Of a stretch of DNA of 32,956 bases, positions 8,393 to 32,956 are shown one piece after another. The translations under genes were made by a program, and so were the position numbers. The DNA is from Candidatus Komeilibacteria bacterium (GTDB lineage Bacteria; Patescibacteriota; Patescibacteriia; UBA1558; GWA2-36-10), in the NCBI GenBank assembly GCA_018656065.1, contig JABHZY010000017.1, forward strand, positions 84,873 to 117,828, given 5' to 3'. Numbering within the stretch: position 1 is the first letter of the stretch; each line of letters starts with the position of its first letter. The notes beneath the pieces were generated by a model that saw nothing but the letters and a program-made list of their open reading frames with translations, was not told the DNA's origin and did no database searches.

Positions 8393-9682
8393 TTATTTCT
8401 TGGCTTCTTTTTTATCTTCTTTCTTGGCTTCTTTTGCTTCTGTATCTTTTTTTACTTTTTCAGGTTTTTCTTCCTTCTTATCGTCTTTTTTTACTTTCTT
8501 AGTTTCAGTTTCTTTAATTTCTTTTACGTCTTTTTTATTCTCTTTTTTCTTATCGTCCTTTTTGTCATCTTTTTTAGTTTCCTTCTTTAGATCTATTCCT
8601 TTTAAAGAAAGTCCCAGGCGATGATGTTTTGGTTCGATAGTAAGAATAGTAAATTCATAATCTTTACCAACAGTTACTAAATCTTCAGGATTTGATACTT
8701 TCTTAGCGCTAAGTTCTGAAATATGAACCAAACCATGGATATCATTATCTAGTTCAATGAAAGCTCCAAAAGGGTTTACTTTAAGAACTTTACCTTTTAC
8801 TTTTTGGCCAATAGTATATTTAGAAGCTACTTCAACCCAAGGATCTTTTTGTAGTTTTTTAATAGACAGAGAGATCTTAGTATTTTCAATATCAATAATT
8901 TCAGCTTTTACATTATCACCAACTTTGATGATATCTCTTGGGTTATCAATTCTTTGCCAAGCAAGTTCTGAAATATGAACCAAGCCTTCTAGACCATCAC
9001 CAAATTCTACAAAGGCACCAAAGTCTACTACGCCAGTCACTCTACCGTCGATTTTATTGCCCACTTTAAATTTAGAAATAACTTTTTTCTGTTTGTCGTT
9101 CCAAGCAGCTTTTTCAGAAACAATAAGTTTTTCTTCTTTTTCGTTTATATCAATTACCTTCGTTTTTAGTAGTTGATTTACAAAACTTTTTAGATGAGTA
9201 AGAATTTTACTTTTATCTCCACCTTCAATACGAGGATAATGTTCAATAGTAAGTTGTGATACTGGTAAAAATCCTACGACATTACCGAGTTTGATCATTA
9301 GACCACCTTTATTAGCGTCTATTACTTTAGAATCAACAATAGTACCTTCTTTATGAAGGCCCTCTAGTTTATCCCAAGCTTTTTTATGGCCAGCCTCACG
9401 AAGAGATAATTCCATATAACCGTTTTCGTTATCTAGGCCGACAACAGTAGCGGTTGCTTGATCACCAATTTTTAAATCTGAAGTTTCATCTGATTCATCA
9501 TAGATTTCTCTACCACGGATAATACCAGTGGTCATACCATCTAGATCTAAATAAATTTCGTTTTTAGAAAGACTGATAACAGTACCAGTCACTAGTTCGC
9601 CCTCTTTTGGAATACTAACTGCTTTTTCATCTTGCAGTAATAGGTCCATTGGATGTTGGGCTGTTGTTTTTTCGTCTGACAT
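8393..9682 (-). CDS. rpsA: 30S ribosomal protein S1-like RNA-binding protein (four S1 domains)
   Basis: Binds mRNA on the small ribosomal subunit. The 429 residues hold four S1 (OB-fold) repeats at about 26-95, 108-190, 205-275 and 290-362. Repeats 3 and 4 have the canonical GAFVEF / GLVHISELA and GAFIEL / GLVHISELS cores. Repeat 2 is divergent (VVGFLPVSQL). The last ~65 residues are a low-complexity tail of Lys, Glu and Asp. Four repeats is fewer than the six of proteobacterial S1 and similar to the short Gram-positive forms. A promoter and two leader hairpins precede it. Given the near absence of Shine-Dalgarno sites in this window, S1-assisted initiation may matter more here; that is inference. 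Confidence 0.92.
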   Translation of the reverse strand: MSDEKTTAQHPMDLLLQDEKAVSIPKEGELVTGTVISLSKNEIYLDLDGMTTGIIRGREIYDESDETSDLKIGDQATATVVGLDNENGYMELSLREAGHKKAWDKLEGLHKEGTIVDSKVIDANKGGLMIKLGNVVGFLPVSQLTIEHYPRIEGGDKSKILTHLKSFVNQLLKTKVIDINEKEEKLIVSEKAAWNDKQKKVISKFKVGNKIDGRVTGVVDFGAFVEFGDGLEGLVHISELAWQRIDNPRDIIKVGDNVKAEIIDIENTKISLSIKKLQKDPWVEVASKYTIGQKVKGKVLKVNPFGAFIELDNDIHGLVHISELSAKKVSNPEDLVTVGKDYEFTILTIEPKHHRLGLSLKGIDLKKETKKDDKKDDKKKENKKDVKEIKETETKKVKKDDKKEEKPEKVKKDTEAKEAKKEDKKEAKK

Positions 9683-19995: not shown

Positions 19996-21066
19996 TTAAT
20001 TAAAATGAAAATGTACCGTATCTCCATCTTGCATAATATATTCTTTACCTTCCATGCGCATATGTCCAGCATCTTTAGCTTGATTCCAGCCCCCATCATC
20101 TAAAAGTAGTTGCCAATCAATTGCTTCGGCTCTAATAAAGCCATCTTCAAAGTCAGTATGAATTACTCCAGCCGCTTGAGGTCCTTTAGTGCCATTGGTG
20201 ATAGTCCAAGCCTTAGTTTCTTCAGGACCAGTAGTGATAAAAGTGATAAGATTTAATAATTTATAACTAGCCGTGATTAAATTATCTAAACCGCTAGCAG
20301 AAATACCTAATTCTTTCATATATTCTTTAGCTTCAGTTTCATCTAGTTCGGCTAATTCAGCTTCAGTTTTAGCACAAATAGAAATAGAGTTGTCCGGCAA
20401 GCCAATATCTTCACCAACATCAGATTCATCAATATTATATAAATAAATAATTGGCTTGATACTTAATAAATTAAGTTGTTTAATTAATTTAGCCTCTTCT
20501 TCATCAAGCTCTAAAGAATTAAGCATTTTATTATCCTCTAATTGAGTCTTAGCTTTTTCCATTAAAGCCTTTTCTTGATCTAGAACTTTTTCATAGGGAC
20601 CCTTCATCTTAGAAACTACTTTATCTAGATGTTTAGTTACTACATCGAGGTCAGCCATTATTAATTCCAGATTAATGATGTCTTTGTCATATTCAGGATT
20701 AATATCACCATGAACATGGGTGACATTTTTATCTGTGAAATGTCTAATCACTTGAACAATGGCATCTACTTCACGAATATTTGATAAAAATTTATTACCT
20801 AAACCCTCACCCTCAGAGGCACCCTTAACTAGGCCAGCAATATCTACAAACTCAATAGTAGTAGGGATAGTTTTGGCAGATTTAGATAGTTTAGTTAATT
20901 TATCTAATCTATCATCTGGTACGGCTACTACACCTACATTGGGATCAATAGTACAAAACGGGTAGTTTGATGCTTCTACCTTGTTTTTAGTTAATGCTTG
21001 AAATAGGGTGGACTTACCAACGTTTGGTAGACCAACAATTCCGACTGTTAGTTTTGAACTTGGCAT
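19996..21066 (-). CDS. ychF: Redox-regulated ATPase / ribosome-binding GTPase-fold protein YchF (OLA1 family)
   Basis: Obg-family P-loop protein that prefers ATP and binds ribosomes. From the ATG at 21066 (MPSSKLTVGIVGLPNVGKST) it has 356 residues, close to the usual 363. The G1 motif GLPNVGKST is at about 11-19. SNYPFCTIDPNVG, VDIAGLVKGASEGEGLGN and the TGS domain (LITFITTGPEETKAWTI) are all present, and the C-terminal hallmark ending in GDTVHFHFN is intact. A longer in-frame start at 21129 is rejected because the added residues lie in the recombinase gene and are not YchF-like. The serine recombinase 3' end overlaps the first 53 bases, so this gene abuts an integrated element. The sulfatase gene follows by 22 bases. 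Confidence 0.96.
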   Translation of the reverse strand: MPSSKLTVGIVGLPNVGKSTLFQALTKNKVEASNYPFCTIDPNVGVVAVPDDRLDKLTKLSKSAKTIPTTIEFVDIAGLVKGASEGEGLGNKFLSNIREVDAIVQVIRHFTDKNVTHVHGDINPEYDKDIINLELIMADLDVVTKHLDKVVSKMKGPYEKVLDQEKALMEKAKTQLEDNKMLNSLELDEEEAKLIKQLNLLSIKPIIYLYNIDESDVGEDIGLPDNSISICAKTEAELAELDETEAKEYMKELGISASGLDNLITASYKLLNLITFITTGPEETKAWTITNGTKGPQAAGVIHTDFEDGFIRAEAIDWQLLLDDGGWNQAKDAGHMRMEGKEYIMQDGDTVHFHFN

Positions 21067-22636
21067 ATTGTTGTATAGGGATAAAGCCAGATATTTGTAA
21101 ATCTCGCCTTGTTCCCACGATTTTTTCAATAGTATTAAGAATTATCGACCTTTTAGTTGTAAAATCTAGGCCTTGCAAAGCCTCTTTTGTCTTATTAGCA
21201 AATTTCTTCATCTCTTGTTTGTTTGGCATTGCCAGTTGTTTTTGATTACCTTTACTTGTAGCTTTTCTTATTTGGTTTTCAAGCTGGCTAATTTTTTCCC
21301 TAATTGGCGTAGTGTAGCCTTTAAGTTGTTCTAAGTCAAACACTCCTGCACCATAGGCTTTGTTATACCTTTCCTCTTGTTTCTTTAATTTTTCAATTTG
21401 TCGTTTTTGGGCGTCTACATCAACCAAAACATCTTTGGATTTACTTTGTCTTTCTTTGAACCAACGATTGACTTGGGCTGTCATTAGTTCAGGCGAGCTC
21501 ATAAGCCCCGCTATCTTTTGCCAGACTAATTTATCTGCAAGTATTGCATTGATGCCTTTTTCTTTGCATTTGGGAGGTAGGGGGAAACTTAAAACTCTGT
21601 CGCTACAGCGATAATAAAGGTTTGGTTTATTAGCATACCCTTCTCCTGTTCGTTTTCTCCCACAAGCACAAGAAATTTTACCCGCTAAAAGGTAGTCATT
21701 TTTTTTGTTGCGTGGGCACAGAGCAAAGTTTGCCTCTATTTGTTTTCTTGCCTTTTCAAAAAGCTCCGTAGTAATAATAGGTGGCACAGGTATTATTATC
21801 CATTCTTCTTTGGGCTTTTTTCTACGACTGGTCTTTTTTACTTTTTTATACCTTTGCTCTTTCAGTGGCTTATCTGGAACGACAGCATAAGAGCTACCCC
21901 AGCAAGCCTCTCCTATATAAGTACGGTTGCGTAGCATAGTGCTTAAGGTGCTAGTGCTCCAAACACCTCGTTTACTCTTTCTTGGTTTTATGCCCTCTTT
22001 TTGAAGCCGTCTCACAACCGCTCTGAGTGTCATACCTTCATTAGCTACCCAAGAAAATATCATCTTTACAACACGTGCCTCTTCGGGATTTATTTTGTAA
22101 TAGCCGTGTTTGTCGTTTTGTTTTGGTATATAGTCGTAGCCATAACGGGGTTCACTTACTAAAATATGGCCTTCTTTTACTTTTCGTAGTTTACCTAATC
22201 TGAAACGTTCTGATATTTTTGCTCGTTCGTATTCAGCAAATAAACCCCTCACACCGTATAGTATTTTATCTTCACTATTCTTGGGAGAGGAGACAGTAAC
22301 AAATAATACTTCGATACCAGCTTCTTTTAATTCGTCCATAATCAACTCCTGATATGAGTAACGTCTGGCCAATCGGTCTGGGTCATAAATAAGTATGGCT
22401 TCCCACACTTTATTTTTAGCGTCTTGTCTTAACTTATCAAGAGCTGGTCTGGCTAGAATATCGCCGCTCCATCCGTCATCAATATATTCTTCAACAATAG
22501 TATAGCCATTCTTTTGAGTAAATTCCTTGAGTGAATACTCTTGATTTTTAATTGTTTGCTGTTCCTCCTGATGGGATGTAGAAACACGAGCGTAGGTAGC
22601 TATTAACTTTATTGGTTTTTCTTTTGTAATATCCAT
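21014..22636 (-). CDS. Large serine recombinase (site-specific integrase)
   Basis: 540 residues. The N-terminal resolvase catalytic domain has YARVSTS with probable nucleophile S19, then DDGWSGD and YDPDRLARR (the conserved active-site Arg region) and YERAKISERFRLG. The Recombinase domain (about 160-260) and a zinc-ribbon (SCACGRKRTG ... YYRCSD ... C) follow, and then a coiled coil (about 400-470). It would integrate and, with an excisionase, excise the element. An excisionase-like gene ends four bases upstream. The last 18 codons are read from DNA that is also the start of ychF in another frame, so the C-terminus may have been supplied by the insertion site or the overlap may be ancestral. 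Confidence 0.93.
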   Translation of the reverse strand: MDITKEKPIKLIATYARVSTSHQEEQQTIKNQEYSLKEFTQKNGYTIVEEYIDDGWSGDILARPALDKLRQDAKNKVWEAILIYDPDRLARRYSYQELIMDELKEAGIEVLFVTVSSPKNSEDKILYGVRGLFAEYERAKISERFRLGKLRKVKEGHILVSEPRYGYDYIPKQNDKHGYYKINPEEARVVKMIFSWVANEGMTLRAVVRRLQKEGIKPRKSKRGVWSTSTLSTMLRNRTYIGEACWGSSYAVVPDKPLKEQRYKKVKKTSRRKKPKEEWIIIPVPPIITTELFEKARKQIEANFALCPRNKKNDYLLAGKISCACGRKRTGEGYANKPNLYYRCSDRVLSFPLPPKCKEKGINAILADKLVWQKIAGLMSSPELMTAQVNRWFKERQSKSKDVLVDVDAQKRQIEKLKKQEERYNKAYGAGVFDLEQLKGYTTPIREKISQLENQIRKATSKGNQKQLAMPNKQEMKKFANKTKEALQGLDFTTKRSIILNTIEKIVGTRRDLQISGFIPIQQYAKFKTNSRNCWSTKRW

Positions 22637-27117: not shown

Positions 27118-27262
27118 AAATCCCATCCCTGATACTGAGCTCTTCGTTCAGCTACTCAGGGATGGGTCGTATAGGGAAACTTGTATGGATGGCCGAAAGG
27201 TCGTCGGCTGGCGGGGAGCTTTGTGCTTTTCGTCAGTGAGAAAACTAAATCCCATCCCTATA
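27118..27262 (+). promoter_or_regulatory. Structured RNA leader of the type III mod gene with repeat and anti-repeat
   Basis: The 207 bases between the HTH gene and mod hold no convincing gene but much structure. H1: 11-bp stem 27122-27132 / 27156-27166. H2: 27188-27194 / 27199-27205 closed by a GAAA tetraloop. H3: 27208-27213 / 27231-27236. The 13-mer AAATCCCATCCCT occurs at 27118-27130 and again at 27247-27259, two bases before the mod ATG. AGGGATGGG (27158-27166) can pair with either copy. TATAGGG (27170-27176) can pair with CCCTATA (27256-27262), which covers the A of the start codon and would enclose H2 and H3. There is no T-run, so it is not a simple terminator. Confidence 0.55.
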
Positions 27263-29031
27263 TGCCAACAAAAAATAAATCGGTTAATTTATCCGACAAT
27301 AAAAAAACAACAAATACTCTCCTTCAAGAGGTGGAGGGTTTTAAAAAAGAAATAAAACAACTTAAAACTAGGAAGAAATACGGTCTTGTCTGGGAGAGTA
27401 AACCAGAGAAGGTTGTTGAGATGTGTAAGGAAAAACTGCCAGTCCTTAAAGAAGAAAAATTTAAAGAAATAAAATCTAATACAAAGAGCCCAGTTAATGT
27501 TTTGATTGAGGGAGACAATTACCATTCTCTCTCAGTTTTAAATTATACTCATAAAGGTCTTGTAGATGTGATATATATTGACCCTCCTTATAACACTGGT
27601 AACAAGGATTTTATATTTAATGATGACTATATTGATAAAGATGATAGTTACCGTCATTCCAAGTGGGTTTCATTTATGTATTCAAGATTAAAATTGGCTC
27701 GTAATTTATTAAGTAAAGATGGAGTAATTTTTATATCAATTGATGATAATGAATTTGCACAATTGAAATTATTGTGTGATGAAATTTTTGGTGAAAGAAA
27801 TTTCTTATCCGCAATAAAATTAAAAGTAAAAGCACCAGCAGGCGTTGGGCAGGAGAGTTATTTATTTGATATTTGTGAGTATGTATTAGCATATGCAAAA
27901 AATTCTCTGAATGTAGTAAATAGGACTCCCCAGACAGAAAAAATTATTTCTACTGACACAACAAAAACATATAACAAAATACTAAAGTCATTTGGTAATG
28001 ATAAATTGGTAAAAACTATATCTGGAGGGATTGTAGGTAAAATTAAAGTATATAAACACAATAAGTATGAAATTGAAACCATACCTGTACTTAAGAGAGA
28101 TATGGCTACCTATTATTCAAATTTCAATAAGGTATTTAGAACCACAAATCCCCAAGGCGGGCTGATGAAAAGGGTAATACCACAAATCCCAAAAAAGGGA
28201 TTGGTTTCAATTGAGTATGTGCCATCTAAAGGTAGGAATAAAGGCACTAGGTATAGGTATTATTTTATAGATGGGTCTTTAGTTGTCTGGTTAAAAGACT
28301 CCGCATTAAAGGATACAGAAAATAAGTTGGTGAAAAAGAATGCAAAGAATACAAATTTATGGCTTGATAATTTTCATCAGGGTATTGCTGGAGAAGGAAA
28401 TGTAGATTTTAAAAATGGCAAGAAGCCAGTACGAATGATAAAGAGATTACTTGAAATGGCATCTGATGATAGTGCGGTTATACTAGATTTTTTTGCTGGC
28501 TCTGGCACAATAGGGCAAGCAGTATTAGAGCTTAATAATAAGGACTCAGGCAAGAGAAAATTTATATTATGTACTGATAATGAAGAAAATATATGTAGAG
28601 AAAAATGTTACCCTAGAATATCTAATGTTATAAAAGGCTATTCAAATAAAAAAGGATTAGGAGGGCACTTAAAATACTACAAAACAGATTTTGTAGATGG
28701 ACAATCTACGGATAAGAATAAAAAGGCTTTAGTTGATAAATCAACCGAAATGCTTTGTATTAAGGAAAATTGTTTTAATAGTGTTAAGAGAGGCAAAAAT
28801 TTTGTAATTTTCAAAGATGGCGACAATAAATATCTAGGTATTATTTATGATGATGATGGCATAGAGCCCCTTAAAAAAGAGGTTAATAGATTAAAGAAGA
28901 AATTTATTGTTTATGTTTTCTCTCTTGATGATAGTGCTAGAGAGGAAGAATTTGAAGATGTAGGCGAGTGGGTTGAGCCTAAACCTATACCAGCGGTAAT
29001 TTTAAATGTATATAAAAGAGTATTCCGATGA
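27262..29031 (+). CDS. Type III restriction-modification system DNA methyltransferase (Mod)
   Basis: 589 residues from the ATG at 27262. An in-frame TTG at 27181 is rejected because it would translate the structured leader. Beta-class amino-methyltransferase order: catalytic motif IV DPPYNTG (D107-P108-P109-Y110) comes before the SAM-binding motif LDFFAGSGTIGQ (FAGSG at about 411-415). The ~200-residue region between them (about 190-395) is the target-recognition domain. It methylates adenine in a short asymmetric site and gives the Res partner its sequence specificity. Its stop overlaps the res start (ATGA, 29028-29031). The N-terminal ~40 residues form a polar coiled coil. Confidence 0.92.
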   Translation: MPTKNKSVNLSDNKKTTNTLLQEVEGFKKEIKQLKTRKKYGLVWESKPEKVVEMCKEKLPVLKEEKFKEIKSNTKSPVNVLIEGDNYHSLSVLNYTHKGLVDVIYIDPPYNTGNKDFIFNDDYIDKDDSYRHSKWVSFMYSRLKLARNLLSKDGVIFISIDDNEFAQLKLLCDEIFGERNFLSAIKLKVKAPAGVGQESYLFDICEYVLAYAKNSLNVVNRTPQTEKIISTDTTKTYNKILKSFGNDKLVKTISGGIVGKIKVYKHNKYEIETIPVLKRDMATYYSNFNKVFRTTNPQGGLMKRVIPQIPKKGLVSIEYVPSKGRNKGTRYRYYFIDGSLVVWLKDSALKDTENKLVKKNAKNTNLWLDNFHQGIAGEGNVDFKNGKKPVRMIKRLLEMASDDSAVILDFFAGSGTIGQAVLELNNKDSGKRKFILCTDNEENICREKCYPRISNVIKGYSNKKGLGGHLKYYKTDFVDGQSTDKNKKALVDKSTEMLCIKENCFNSVKRGKNFVIFKDGDNKYLGIIYDDDGIEPLKKEVNRLKKKFIVYVFSLDDSAREEEFEDVGEWVEPKPIPAVILNVYKRVFR

Positions 29032-31214
29032 TAAAATTAAAAGATTATCAAAAAAATGCAGTAGAAAATCTGCATAGAAAAATTGAGAGTTCACTTAGGG
29101 CATCAGAAAACGAGGTGGTTATTTTTCAAGCCCCTACTGGCTCTGGTAAAACAGTGGTTGTTTCAGAATTGTTGAAAGAACTTGTAAAAAATAAGTCTGG
29201 CCACAAAGAGCTCTCTTTCGTTTGGCTTTCGGTTAGAATGTTGCACGAACAAAGTAAGGAGAAACTAGAAAATTACTATGAAGACGATAGGCTTATAAAA
29301 TGTTCATATTTTGAGGATTTAGAAGACCGTAAAATAGCCGAAAATGAAATACTATTTATAAATTGGCATAGCATCAATAAAAAGGACATTAACATTTTTG
29401 TTCGTGAGAATGAACAGGATAATAATTTAAGTAGTATCATAAAAAATACAAAAGCTGATGGGCGTGAAATGGTTTTAGTTATTGACGAAAGTCATCATAC
29501 TGCTAGTTCTGACAAATCAAAAGAGCTCATTGAGGTCATAAGCCCTAAATTGGTATTAGAGGTTTCTGCTACACCACACTTAACAGAAAATGTCGCAGAG
29601 ATTGAGAAAGTACGCTTAACAGATGTTAAAGCAGAAGAAATGATAAAGTCGGAGATTACAGTTAATCCAGAATTTTTAAATATCAAGGTAGGCACTAAAA
29701 GCTCAGATGAAATAGTGATAGAGCAGGCTTTAAACAAAAGAACAGAGTTGGCCAAAATGTATAAAAAAGAAAAAGACAATGTTAATCCTTTGTTACTAAT
29801 CCAGTTACCAGATAAAAAGAGTAATCTTATTAGCAAAAAAGAAGATGTAATAAAGATATTAGATAAAAACGGCATAACTGAAAAGAATGGTAAACTCGCT
29901 ATTTGGTTGTCAGAGGATAAATCAGACACGCTACAAGGGATTGAACAAAACGATAATCAGGCAGAGGTTTTGATTTTTAAACAAGCTATTGCATTGGGCT
30001 GGGATTGTCCAAGAGCTTCAATTTTGGCAATTTTTAGAGAGTCAAAGAGTTTTACCTTTACTATACAGACTATCGGTAGGATTATGAGAATGCCAGAGCT
30101 TAAGTATTATACAAAAACTCCAGAGCTTAATCAGGGTTATGTTTTTACAAACTTATCTGACATAGAAATTACTGAGGATTATGCCAAAGATTACCTCACT
30201 GTTTATGAGTCAAAAAGAGATAATAAAATATATAAAAACATTTCTATTCCCTCTGTGTATTTAAAAAGACAGAGAGAAAGAACTCGTTTATCAGGAGAAT
30301 TTACTAAATTGTTTGCACAAATAGCACAGACAAAGAAACTAAAGTCTAAGGTCACCCTAAAGCCATCAAAGCTAATTAGTCCCATAATATCAGATGGCAA
30401 GATTGTAGACATTGATAAATCTGGCGAAATAGAACATAAGGGTAAAATTAAAGTAGCCCTTAACGAGAAAGAGCTACAAGAAATGTTTGATAAGTTTATA
30501 ATACGAAACTGTACTCCTTATGCCCCCGCTGACTCAAGCGATAGAATGAAGACAGCTCTTTATCAATTTTTTAATAAAGATTTTAAATTGGCAAAGTATG
30601 ACCCTAAAGTTCAAAGATTGGTGTTAGGTCAAGAAAATGCACAGATTTTTGTAGACACAATCAATTTGGCCAAAGAGAAATATAAGAAGGAAATAGTCAA
30701 AAAAGTTAATGAAAAAAGAGAGGTTATAGAAACGCTAAAATGGGAAGTACCAGTAGTAATTAGTTATAACAGCAGATACCAGAAAGAAGAGCGTAAATTG
30801 TCAGCAATGAAACCATTTTACACTGCTAAGCCTAGTGAACCAGAGAAGATGTTTGTAGAGCTTTTAGAAGGCTCAAAAAAGGTAAAATGGTGGTATAAAA
30901 ATGGTGAAACGGAGGTTAAATACTTTGCTGTTTTAAGAGAAGATAATTTAGCATTTTATCCAGACTTCATTTTTCAATTGAAGGATGGAAGTATAGGTAT
31001 ATTTGATACTAAATCAGGCAGAACTGCTGAAACCGATGAGGCTGCACCCAGAGCCGAACCATTACAGAAATATATAAAAAAGCAAAACAAGAAAGGTAAA
31101 AAGTTATTTGGAGGAATTGCCATCTATGTTAATGGTACTTGGAGATATAATGATAATTCTAAATACGAATATAATCCTAACGATTTATCAAGCTGGAAGA
31201 TATTAACTTTATAA
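29028..31214 (+). CDS. Type III restriction enzyme Res subunit (SF2 helicase-nuclease)
   Basis: 728 residues. The superfamily 2 helicase core has motif I APTGSGKT (35-42), motif II DESH (153-156), motif III SATPH (about 178-182) and motif VI QTIGRIMRMPE (about 345-355). The C-terminal PD-(D/E)xK nuclease reads YPDFIF (P645, D646) and then FDTKSG (D660, K662), so both modules appear intact. With Mod it would move or slide on DNA and cut where two unmethylated head-to-head sites meet. Four-base overlap with mod implies coupled translation. It is shorter than EcoP1I/EcoP15I Res. No frameshift is seen, so the pair is probably active. Confidence 0.92.
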   Translation: MIKLKDYQKNAVENLHRKIESSLRASENEVVIFQAPTGSGKTVVVSELLKELVKNKSGHKELSFVWLSVRMLHEQSKEKLENYYEDDRLIKCSYFEDLEDRKIAENEILFINWHSINKKDINIFVRENEQDNNLSSIIKNTKADGREMVLVIDESHHTASSDKSKELIEVISPKLVLEVSATPHLTENVAEIEKVRLTDVKAEEMIKSEITVNPEFLNIKVGTKSSDEIVIEQALNKRTELAKMYKKEKDNVNPLLLIQLPDKKSNLISKKEDVIKILDKNGITEKNGKLAIWLSEDKSDTLQGIEQNDNQAEVLIFKQAIALGWDCPRASILAIFRESKSFTFTIQTIGRIMRMPELKYYTKTPELNQGYVFTNLSDIEITEDYAKDYLTVYESKRDNKIYKNISIPSVYLKRQRERTRLSGEFTKLFAQIAQTKKLKSKVTLKPSKLISPIISDGKIVDIDKSGEIEHKGKIKVALNEKELQEMFDKFIIRNCTPYAPADSSDRMKTALYQFFNKDFKLAKYDPKVQRLVLGQENAQIFVDTINLAKEKYKKEIVKKVNEKREVIETLKWEVPVVISYNSRYQKEERKLSAMKPFYTAKPSEPEKMFVELLEGSKKVKWWYKNGETEVKYFAVLREDNLAFYPDFIFQLKDGSIGIFDTKSGRTAETDEAAPRAEPLQKYIKKQNKKGKKLFGGIAIYVNGTWRYNDNSKYEYNPNDLSSWKILTL

Positions 31215-31239: not shown

Positions 31240-31971
31240 ATGTCAAAAATAAAGAAAAAAAAGACATTAACAGTTCCTATAAAAGATATTAAGATTGATA
31301 AAGTAAGATATAAAAAGGCCAAAAAAAGTTTTGATGATTTTTTGAGCTCCACTGCCCATTTACATTTTTTCAAATGTCAGGATGAAGAGTGCCTTTTAGA
31401 GTTTATGGTATTGTCTTGGAAAAAAGATTGGCCATTGAAATATAAACCCTATTGTCCAGAATGTGGTCAGCAAAAAGCTAGTAATCTTCGTAGTGTTTCT
31501 ACTGATAAAAAAATATACGAAGTTGTATATAGTGATAAATGGGAGGATATTGGAAAATATATGAAAAGAAAAATTTTACATTTTGAAGATGAAGAAATGT
31601 TGGCCAATATATATTCCACCAAACTTAAACAACTAGGGTTTGATTATAAGTTTTATTTACATCCGCCAAAGACAGAACAAGAGTTGATAAGTTTAGTGTT
31701 GACCGAGAAACCTGATTTGATAATTATGGATATAATAATGCCCGTGATGGACGGATTTAAGGCTACTGAAATTCTGAAAAATCACCCAGAGACAAAAGAC
31801 ACACCGATTATAGGTTTGTGCAATATGGGTCAGAAAGAGGATATTGATAAGGCCAGAGAATTGGGTATGTCCGATTACTTTGTAAACTCGCAAATTACTC
31901 CCACTAAATTTGTAGCTAGGGTAGGGGGGTTTTTAGATAGTCCTCAAGACTATACTCCCAAATTTGGCTAA
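31240..31971 (+). CDS. Zinc-ribbon plus receiver (REC) domain protein
   Basis: 243 residues. The basic N-terminus is followed by a likely zinc-binding site (C46, C51, C72, C75 in CPECG). From about 110 there is a CheY-like receiver domain: acidic pair in HFEDEE (E116-E118), phosphoacceptor D164 in IIMDIIMPVMDG, and the terminal helix around 205-230. The usual Thr/Ser after beta-4 is C194 and the usual Lys after beta-5 is N216 (DYFVNS), so phosphorylation signalling may be altered or lost. No histidine kinase is nearby. It starts 25 bases after res on the same strand and may share its transcript; a link to restriction is only positional. Confidence 0.75.
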   Translation: MSKIKKKKTLTVPIKDIKIDKVRYKKAKKSFDDFLSSTAHLHFFKCQDEECLLEFMVLSWKKDWPLKYKPYCPECGQQKASNLRSVSTDKKIYEVVYSDKWEDIGKYMKRKILHFEDEEMLANIYSTKLKQLGFDYKFYLHPPKTEQELISLVLTEKPDLIIMDIIMPVMDGFKATEILKNHPETKDTPIIGLCNMGQKEDIDKARELGMSDYFVNSQITPTKFVARVGGFLDSPQDYTPKFG

Positions 31972-32053: not shown

Positions 32054-32082
32054 TTGACATTTTTGCTAAAATATGCTATCAT
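32054..32082 (+). promoter_or_regulatory. Canonical sigma-70 promoter of the DGR-like target gene
   Basis: -35 TTGACA (32054-32059), exactly 17 bases, -10 TATCAT (32077-32082). Transcription from about 32089 gives a leader of roughly 160 bases before the ATG at 32252. Confidence 0.8.
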
Positions 32083-32124: not shown

Positions 32125-32245
32125 GTAGCTATAGCCACAAGCCCTTAATATATTGAGGTTTTCTGGCTATGGCTACCAAGGTGGTCGCCCTCTAGCTCTA
32201 ACCTAGGACGAGTTCTTCAAAAAGAACGTGTCCAAAGCAAAGGAG
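32125..32245 (+). promoter_or_regulatory. Structured 5' leader and Shine-Dalgarno of the DGR-like target gene
   Basis: A 13-base stem with one G:U pair joins 32125-32137 to 32164-32176. A second hairpin pairs 32206-32217 with 32222-32233 (one mismatch, one G:U) around a 4-base loop. Six bases after it comes the strong ribosome-binding site AAAGGAG (32239-32245), itself six bases before the ATG. This is the only clear Shine-Dalgarno I see in the window. Confidence 0.65.
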
Positions 32246-32251
32246 TTGACG

Positions 32252-32815
32252 ATGTCAACAATTTATTCCATCGGCCAGATGAACCAGCTCGCAGATGCTC
32301 TCGAGGCAGCGGGATACACTCCCGATGACGTGACTAAGCTCCGTTCCAAGCCCGAGACTCTCAAGCAGTTCAAGCCCGTCCTGATGGGAATGGCCGAAGT
32401 CACCATCAAGACTCACGTCATCGACTGCGATGCCGACCCTTACGTGCCCGACAACTGGAATGTTGAGGAGCACATCAAGGGTGGCGAGCTTCGCTGGAAC
32501 CCCGACGAGGTCGAACTCTGGCTCTGCGACGAGCAGAAGAAGGATTCTATCGAGGGCAACAAGCTTCGTAAGAAGCTGAAAGGTCAGCTTGTCCTCAACG
32601 CCAACGTTCTGGATTATCTGCTGGCTAACCCCAAGCTCATCCCCGAGGAGTGGAAGAATAAGGCGGTGTTCTTCTGGGGCACCATCTACCGCTACTCGAG
32701 CGGCGACCTGTCTGTCCGCTACCTCTATTGGGACGACGACGGGTGGGACTGGAGCAGCGGCTGGCTCGGCCGTGGCTTCGGCGACGGCGACCCTGCGGCG
32801 GTTGCCTGCAAGTAG
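32252..32815 (+). CDS. Probable diversity-generating retroelement target protein
   Basis: 187 residues from the ATG at 32252, chosen because AAAGGAG lies six bases upstream; a GTG at 32228 would begin before the ribosome-binding site. The body is polar (STIYSIGQMNQLADALEAAG, then TIKTHVIDCDADPYVPDNW and LVLNANVLDYLLANPKLIP). The C-terminus from VFFWGTIYR (139-147) on looks like a C-type-lectin-like DGR variable region: LYWDDDGWDWSSGWLGRGFG (158-177) and a GDGDPAAV end. I recall similar proteins in Patescibacteria, many copies differing in this tail. Codon usage is GC-rich and unlike all neighbours. No signal peptide or membrane segment is seen; the function may be ligand or protein binding. 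Confidence 0.72.
   Translation: MSTIYSIGQMNQLADALEAAGYTPDDVTKLRSKPETLKQFKPVLMGMAEVTIKTHVIDCDADPYVPDNWNVEEHIKGGELRWNPDEVELWLCDEQKKDSIEGNKLRKKLKGQLVLNANVLDYLLANPKLIPEEWKNKAVFFWGTIYRYSSGDLSVRYLYWDDDGWDWSSGWLGRGFGDGDPAAVACK
32687..32791 (+). other. Putative DGR variable region (VR) at the 3' end of the target gene
   Basis: Codons for residues 146-180 contain no Asn and no Lys or Glu. About 18 of the 20 Tyr, Ser, Gly, Asp, Arg and Phe codons that look variable end in C or T, as expected if template AAC/AAT codons were mutated at A only (AAY to NNY). The invariant-looking residues are Trp (TGG) and Leu (CTG/CTC), which contain no A. The whole gene also favours C-ending codons, so this alone is not proof. 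The right edge would lie near GACCCTGCGGCGGTT. Confidence 0.55.
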
Positions 32816-32876
32816 TTAGTCCTTGAGACTTAAGCACTTTGGCCTCCTTAGGCCTTTGTCCTTAGTCCTTTGGACT
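32816..32876 (+). repeat. Small hairpins and near-repeat just downstream of the putative VR
   Basis: GGCCT-CCTT-AGGCC (32841-32854) and AGTCC-TTT-GGACT (32864-32876) are perfect short hairpins. A 16-base segment following the stop recurs with two differences about 47 bases later, both starting TTAGTCCTT. Many DGRs carry a hairpin after the variable region that assists retrohoming; equivalence here is inference. Confidence 0.45.
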
Positions 32877-32885
32877 TGAAAACAG

Positions 32886-32927
32886 CGACCTACATCGGTT
32901 ACTCACACTGGTGTAGGTCGTTTACTT
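32886..32927 (+). terminator. Probable terminator after the DGR-like target gene
   Basis: Perfect 9-base stem CGACCTACA (32886-32894) / TGTAGGTCG (32912-32920), 17-base loop, then TTTACTTTTG. It may separate the target gene from downstream DGR parts outside the window. Confidence 0.6.
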
Positions 32928-32956
32928 TTGCCAATTTTGTCTGCGAATGAAGAGAG

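Follow-up and report, generated by a model that had tools for sequence, protein, structure and literature searches.

A DGR target gene at a contig end of a Candidatus Komeilibacteria genome and a conserved structured RNA that probably belongs to the template transcript of related loci

The target gene and its surroundings

The window analyzed here is a stretch of 32,956 nucleotides from a Candidatus Komeilibacteria genome (G000:C28:84873-117828), the last base of which is also the end of contig C28. Close to that end lies a gene for a variable protein, the target of a diversity-generating retroelement (DGR), which alters one patch of a protein through error-prone copying from an RNA template. 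The gene is preceded by an AGGAG ribosome-binding site and followed by a Rho-independent terminator; its features are listed in Table 1 together with those located on a second contig, C29. The GC content of the gene is 58% (GC3 78%), compared with 33% for the window, and because the copies of this gene in relatives are also GC-rich, this richness is a trait of the family. Many of the 44 loci that hold homologues of the target then carry a template repeat (TR), avd and reverse transcriptase (RT) of their own. Inspection of the translated gene reveals a C-terminus built from Trp anchors with Asp, Gly, Ser and Tyr between them, where the variable part is devoid of Asn.

Table 1 Features of the target gene in the window and of the associated genes on contig C29
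Feature	Position	Strand	Details and basis
Promoter-like site of target gene, TTGACA-17-TATCAT (predicted)	32054..32082	+	Consensus scan, 11/12 matches
Structured 5' UTR stem of target mRNA, GCTATAGCCA (32128-32137) with TGGCTATGGC (32164-32173)	32128..32173	+	Covariation; helix proposed by eye
Hairpin GGAC..GTTC / GAAC..GTCC just 5' of target ribosome-binding site	32206..32233	+	Covariation test
DGR target (variable protein) gene, 187 aa	32252..32815	+	Homologues in 44 genome loci; AlphaFold2 model
Variable repeat (VR)	32688..32811	+	Arg147 codon to C-terminus; 124-base match to TR
Unmutated VR 3' end, CCTGCGGCGGTTGCCTGCAA, candidate IMH	32792..32811	+	Same in TR and VR; copies diverge thereafter
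Small hairpin 3' of stop, GGCCTCCTTAGGCC, within CTTTGG/CTTAG-type repeat run	32841..32854	+	Seen after VR in relatives read
Rho-independent terminator of target gene	32884..32922	+	16-pair stem, T-rich tail
Probable first leader bases, TCTGCGAATG..., like consensus TAGGTGAATATG	32940..32956	+	Position and similarity by eye only
Template repeat (TR)	G000:C29:30079-30202	-	124 bases; 17 bases from C29 end
bAvd gene	C29:29710-30060	opposite to TR/RT	PF22296
RT gene	C29:28664-29683	-	PF00078, E 7e-23

An AlphaFold2 model of the target protein was obtained with a pLDDT of 95.3. Foldseek searches with this model returned no match below E 0.001, and several of the weak top PDB hits were C-type lectin domains; the search against viral models returned no match. 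A divergent lectin-like fold is therefore likely.

Several genes upstream of the target were also recognized. A response-regulator receiver domain protein with a zinc-ribbon-like N-terminal part lies just upstream (31240-31971), and a Type III restriction-modification pair occupies 27181-31214 (Mod 27181-29031, Res 29028-31214). Further away, a large serine-recombinase-like ORF (21014-22636) sits beside a YchF-like GTPase gene, a possible boundary of a mobile element.

Template repeat and DGR proteins

Only two copies of the repeat exist across the assembly, namely VR and TR. Alignment of the two reveals 17 mismatches, all 17 of which fall on adenines of TR (14 A>G, 2 A>C and 1 A>T), an outcome with a chance probability of P = 3.4e-12 given the 33 adenines in TR. 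Just over half of these adenines (17/33) are altered in VR, as are all nine AAC/AAT codons of TR, and each altered codon specifies a new amino acid. By analogy with BPP-1, the unmutated stretch at the VR 3' end would act as the IMH.

The RT carries the motifs LGNLTSQ and YADD, and its best solved relative is the bRT of BPP-1 (8ub7, E 7e-46), with the next best match at 1e-19. The bAvd protein matches PF22296 with E 3.4e-10 and 40.8 bits (cut-off 40). The 5' end of the avd gene coincides with a run of nine C's (L004 ~9627-9660, G000:C29), where reading in frame from the upstream ATG would need a different number of C's; the homopolymer may be phase-variable or may contain a sequencing error. 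A second RT in the genome (L006, G000:C6:168220-168882) was considered as the DGR enzyme and rejected, as it is a DRT2-like defence RT (PADLOC E 2e-118). This DRT2-like gene adjoins a Schlafen AlbA_2 protein.

The gene at 32252-32815 is thus confirmed, at the level of sequence, as a DGR target: the repeats differ in an A-specific manner, a DGR-type RT lies near the template, bAvd is present, and VR forms the 3' end of the gene. Until the template was found, composition alone was compatible with an end that had nothing to do with a DGR, being instead a low-complexity Trp/Gly/Asp repeat or the mark of an ordinary paralogue family. Mismatches confined to adenines of a template that lies beside an RT and bAvd refute that explanation, and we regard its remaining probability as negligible.

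An initial annotation of the window had proposed a GC-rich gene with a DGR-type variable C-terminus, whose ORF proves real and has the composition described above, and had traced this composition to AAC/AAT template codons diversified at adenines, as the nine altered codons now bear out. It had also expected the remainder of the DGR, including a DGR-type reverse transcriptase, beyond the window, and TR, RT and bAvd were indeed located elsewhere in this genome, at the terminus of a second contig that is very probably adjacent to the first. The predicted template repeat, matching 32687-32808 except at adenines, was found with 17 of 17 mismatches at A, and its boundaries on the gene are revised to 32688-32811.

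A probable contig break inside the DGR

The start of VR lies 269 bases short of the C28 end, and that of TR 17 bases into C29. In two relatives of the same family, the targets of which are 60% and 53% identical to the present one, the target, TR, antisense avd and RT follow one another in the same order on a single contig, with 519 and 543 bases between the starts of VR and TR. This one-contig order of target, TR, avd and RT was found in L028, L029 and other loci, where the VR-to-TR offset is ~400-540. Given these relatives, the assembly was probably broken inside the DGR, such that C29 very probably abuts C28; the simplest reading would be a gap of ~200-260 bases at the 124-base near-repeat.

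DGRs across the class

A search for the RT returned matches in 116 of 381 genomes of the class. We read 127 RT loci and obtained a TR/VR pair from 104 of them, where 1799 of 1864 mismatches fall on TR adenines. Mismatches between TR and VR in relatives are thus almost exclusively at template adenines. Wherever avd was detected it is antisense to RT (118/118 loci), and the order of VR, TR, antisense avd and RT is constant despite widely differing target families.

Individual loci illustrate the range of arrangements. Large AAA-ATPase-like proteins (733-919 aa) with a C-terminal VR are the DGR targets at L038 and L040. One TR corresponds to two targets on different contigs at L030 (G008:C11) and L029 (G008:C7), both of which differ from it at adenines only. 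At L046, VR runs straight into avd without a separate TR, probably due to assembly collapse of VR and TR.

The presence of DGRs in Patescibacteria, also invoked in the initial annotation, agrees with the description of DGR clade 2 as restricted to this group (Roux et al. 2021, PMC8144416). The present system resembles clade 2 in host group, cellular location and small targets without recognized domains. The locus is almost certainly a Patescibacteria DGR and a candidate member of clade 2, where the fit consists of host group and the conserved architecture of the 127 related loci. An earlier wide description of Patescibacteria DGRs was reportedly given by Paul et al. in 2017.

A structured RNA leader precedes the template repeat in relatives

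Beyond anything in the initial annotation, a conserved structured RNA was found before the template. In relatives across Patescibacteria, the target terminator is followed by a conserved element that consists of a -10 box and then ~210 nt up to TR; all 43 of 43 leaders have such a box in front, compared with 14 expected. Eight helices with a total of 48 pairs make up the consensus derived from 32 diverse leaders. Of the cells in the alignment, 93.6% are paired, and both partners change in 43 of the 48 pairs. Covariation scores 0.765, versus 0.308 +/- 0.012 after shuffling and 0.15-0.19 when the partners are slid.

The 12 pairs of helix H3 end a few bases 5' of TR. Directly 5' of H3 is the motif UACUU(GG), itself preceded by a short strand, a1, that is complementary to a second strand, a2, directly 3' of TR. 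In the median, a1 ends 1 nt before ACTTGG and a2 starts 3 nt after TR. Both strands vary together among relatives, giving a1/a2 pairs such as AAATAAAGA/TCTTTATTT, AAATGAAGC/GCTTCATTT, AAAGATGAAA/TTTCATCTTT, AAATGAATA/TATTCATTT and CTGAAGA/TCTTCAG, among others. Across 79 loci, the a1/a2 helix scores 14.50 versus 10.98 +/- 0.28 with flanks swapped between loci (z 12.6), where the shuffling and swapping tests control relatedness only in part. Control positions in the leader gave z values of -0.9 and 2.0, and the pairing of the VR 3' flank with a1 gave z 5.6, which is above the null though much less than for a2 and is not fully explained. Two other foldings were rejected. A local a1 hairpin (CTTCA..TGAAG) in place of the a1/a2 helix reaches z 2.1 versus 12.2, with a1/a2 scoring higher in 84% of loci, and a GAATAC/GTATTC pseudoknot within H3, seen by eye, fails in several sequences.

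Downstream of TR, a terminator-like hairpin was found in 103 of 104 loci, against 24.6 expected, and the TR of this genome is followed by one as well. Given the covariation, the -10 box, this hairpin and the pairing of a leader strand with the 3' flank of TR, the template RNA is probably a separate transcript that is structured in its 5' part and has a helix closing around the template.

In the present genome, the leader coincides with the contig break. The last bases of the window are probably its first, and covariance model R1 fails to reach 32940-32956 because the element is cut there. Contig C29 holds the last 17 bases before TR, the a2 strand (TCCTCATTT) and the terminator-like hairpin after TR; the rest of the leader would fall in the gap between C28 and C29. 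A leader model for this locus includes a strand expected to pair with GGCAAGCTATAC before TR and another expected to pair with TCCTCATTT before an ACTTGG-like motif. The gap is accordingly predicted to contain hairpins H1 and H2, the ACTTGG motif and two strands that resemble AAATGAGGA and GGTATAGCTTGC, the second of which would pair with bases before TR. A DNA probe for the predicted H3 strand, run against the assembly, matched only the known partner strand and one chance site.

Distribution of the leader RNA

With model R1, matches were obtained in 107 of 334 genomes of the class and in 56 of 287 genomes drawn from the phylum, where most of the latter come from other classes, outside the training set. 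In 82 of 94 class matches compared with the RT list, an RT follows in the same orientation after 475-582 nt, an association that is partly built in because R1 was trained on loci chosen as upstream of DGR RTs. The leader RNA also precedes unrelated target families. Twenty R1 loci were examined further, mostly chosen for the lack of a listed RT alongside or in the genome, and several proved to have RT or avd. Seven loci (L252, L253, L255, L256, L259, L261 and L266) carry the RNA together with a TR-like stretch and no RT in the sequence covered, a pattern that hints at templates used in trans. R1 also finds templates without needing an RT gene. Leader copies at L258, L268 and L269 are without a recognizable TR and are probably remnants.

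These distributions bear on whether the leader belongs to the template at all. It could instead be a separate small or regulatory RNA that merely lies between target and template, for instance a cis-regulator of avd or RT, consistent with its own promoter-like box, its ability to fold alone and the few copies without TR. Against this stand the end of H3 within a few bases of TR, the seven loci where RNA and TR occur together even without a nearby RT gene, and the a1/a2 helix, which spans TR. We consider a separate RNA very unlikely, and favor a leader that is the 5' domain of the template transcript.

A scan of loci against Rfam 15 gave no leader match above gathering score, and none at the window end. 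The Rfam family RT-7 (RF03028) was rejected as an identity for the leader: its two weak matches in DGR loci (27.8 and 21.2 bits versus a gathering score of 116.8) include one on the opposite strand, and none of 192 class genomes reaches the cut-off. No description of a structured leader or an a1/a2 helix was found in the open literature searched. Within Rfam 15 and that literature, the structured template RNA appears to be previously undescribed. The text of Roux et al. 2021 (PMC8144416) was searched and makes no mention of Avd or strand.

Comparison with BPP-1 and retrons

The system of Bordetella phage BPP-1 (mtd-avd-TR-brt, AY029185) shares with the present one an A-specific TR/VR relationship, a DGR RT, bAvd and a hairpin after VR. 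In BPP-1, avd and TR share a strand, with avd immediately 5', and a spacer of 144 bp lies between TR and brt; this spacer folds, brings in bRT-Avd and supplies the internal adenine from which cDNA is primed (PMC12875486). Unlike BPP-1, the systems described here place avd antisense, a terminator right after TR and, in relatives, the structured RNA 5' of TR, so that neither a structured RNA 3' of TR nor a sense avd 5' of it, the marks of a BPP-1-type template RNA, was found. Running R1 on BPP-1 gave no match.

A second likeness, in layout only, is to the msr-msd RNA of retrons, which also has paired a1/a2 ends, a 5' structured domain and an unpaired conserved stretch after a1, at which a 2'-OH could prime. 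The paired ends are present in relatives, with one of the two strands unseen in this genome. Unlike a retron, the system uses a DGR-type RT with bAvd, it copies the TR that belongs to a target gene, and msDNA is not known from it. The RT is closest to the bRT of BPP-1 rather than to retron RTs, and the locus is not classed as a retron.

A proposed mechanism for template copying

We are highly confident in the reading as a whole, namely a Patescibacteria-type DGR target gene served by a separate template RNA with a 5' domain and an a1/a2 clamp, where target, VR, TR, RT and avd were identified from the sequence of this genome and the RNA structure from that of relatives. In the proposed mechanism, a separate transcript would carry TR, which RT and bAvd would reverse-transcribe with errors at adenines; the resulting cDNA would take the place of VR at the gene's 3' end, leading to altered residues in a C-terminal, probably C-type-lectin-like domain. 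The template RNA would comprise, in order, the -10 box at its promoter, a 5' domain of ~210 nt, TR (~125 nt), a2 roughly three bases further on and, where the antisense avd gene stops, a terminator. Its 5' domain would be composed of hairpins H1 and H2, strand a1, UACUUGG and the long helix H3, which closes right before TR. Because a1 pairs with a2, both ends of TR would meet at one junction beside the unpaired, conserved UACUU.

This geometry suggests functions for the individual parts. The 5' domain likely recruits RT-bAvd, doing the job of the BPP-1 spacer, and cDNA synthesis likely starts from a 2'-OH in UACUU, opposite the TR 3' end, as in retrons. The full proposal, a free-standing retron-like template RNA for Patescibacteria DGRs in which the 5' domain recruits RT-bAvd, the helix clamps the ends of TR and a 2'-OH of the invariant UACUUGG primes, is one we believe and doubt in about equal measure. 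If true, the arrangement would be a circular permutation of BPP-1, and cassettes of RNA, TR and target without an RT would be served in trans.

Chemistry of the BPP-1 type would assign these roles differently, with the recruiting and priming RNA 3' of TR, antisense to avd, and a 5' leader that only regulates or stabilizes the transcript. BPP-1 does use the spacer 3' of TR and supplies the closest solved relative of the RT, and the interval between TR and RT (~400 nt) is long enough for such a spacer. That interval, however, begins with a terminator-like hairpin in 103 of 104 loci and holds a coding gene on the opposite strand in all 118, while the covarying a1/a2 helix joins the leader to the 3' edge of TR. 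We therefore judge a 3' spacer to be improbable and retain the 5' domain as the proposed site of recruitment and priming.

Detailed knowledge of DGR chemistry comes from a single phage system. The new element here is a covariation-supported template RNA structure for a cellular lineage in which DGRs abound, where the template would be compact and self-contained and priming would be expected at an obvious junction. The start of cDNA in cellular DGRs, the kinship of DGR and retron RNA layouts, and the service of RT-less cassettes in trans are now directly testable.

Structured elements of the target mRNA

The target mRNA of this genome carries structured elements of its own on both sides of the coding region. 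In 16 related targets, the 5' UTR stems have a covariation score of 0.272, versus 0.131 +/- 0.013 after shuffling and 0.04-0.09 with partners slid, as counted on hand-given helices. RNAalifold returned no pair on a first, badly cut 5' UTR alignment. The hairpin before the ribosome-binding site varies in a compensatory manner among relatives (GGAC/GTCC, GCAAC/GTTGC, GTGAC/GTCAC). The structured 5' UTR (32128-32233), common to related targets, may control translation of the variable protein.

Beyond the stop codon, the small hairpin would correspond, by analogy with BPP-1, to the retrohoming hairpin. Short CTTTGG/CTTAG-type repeats follow VR at 32812-32880 and in the relatives read among L045-L080, forming small hairpins before the terminator, and these repeat hairpins are possibly the retrohoming signal of this lineage.
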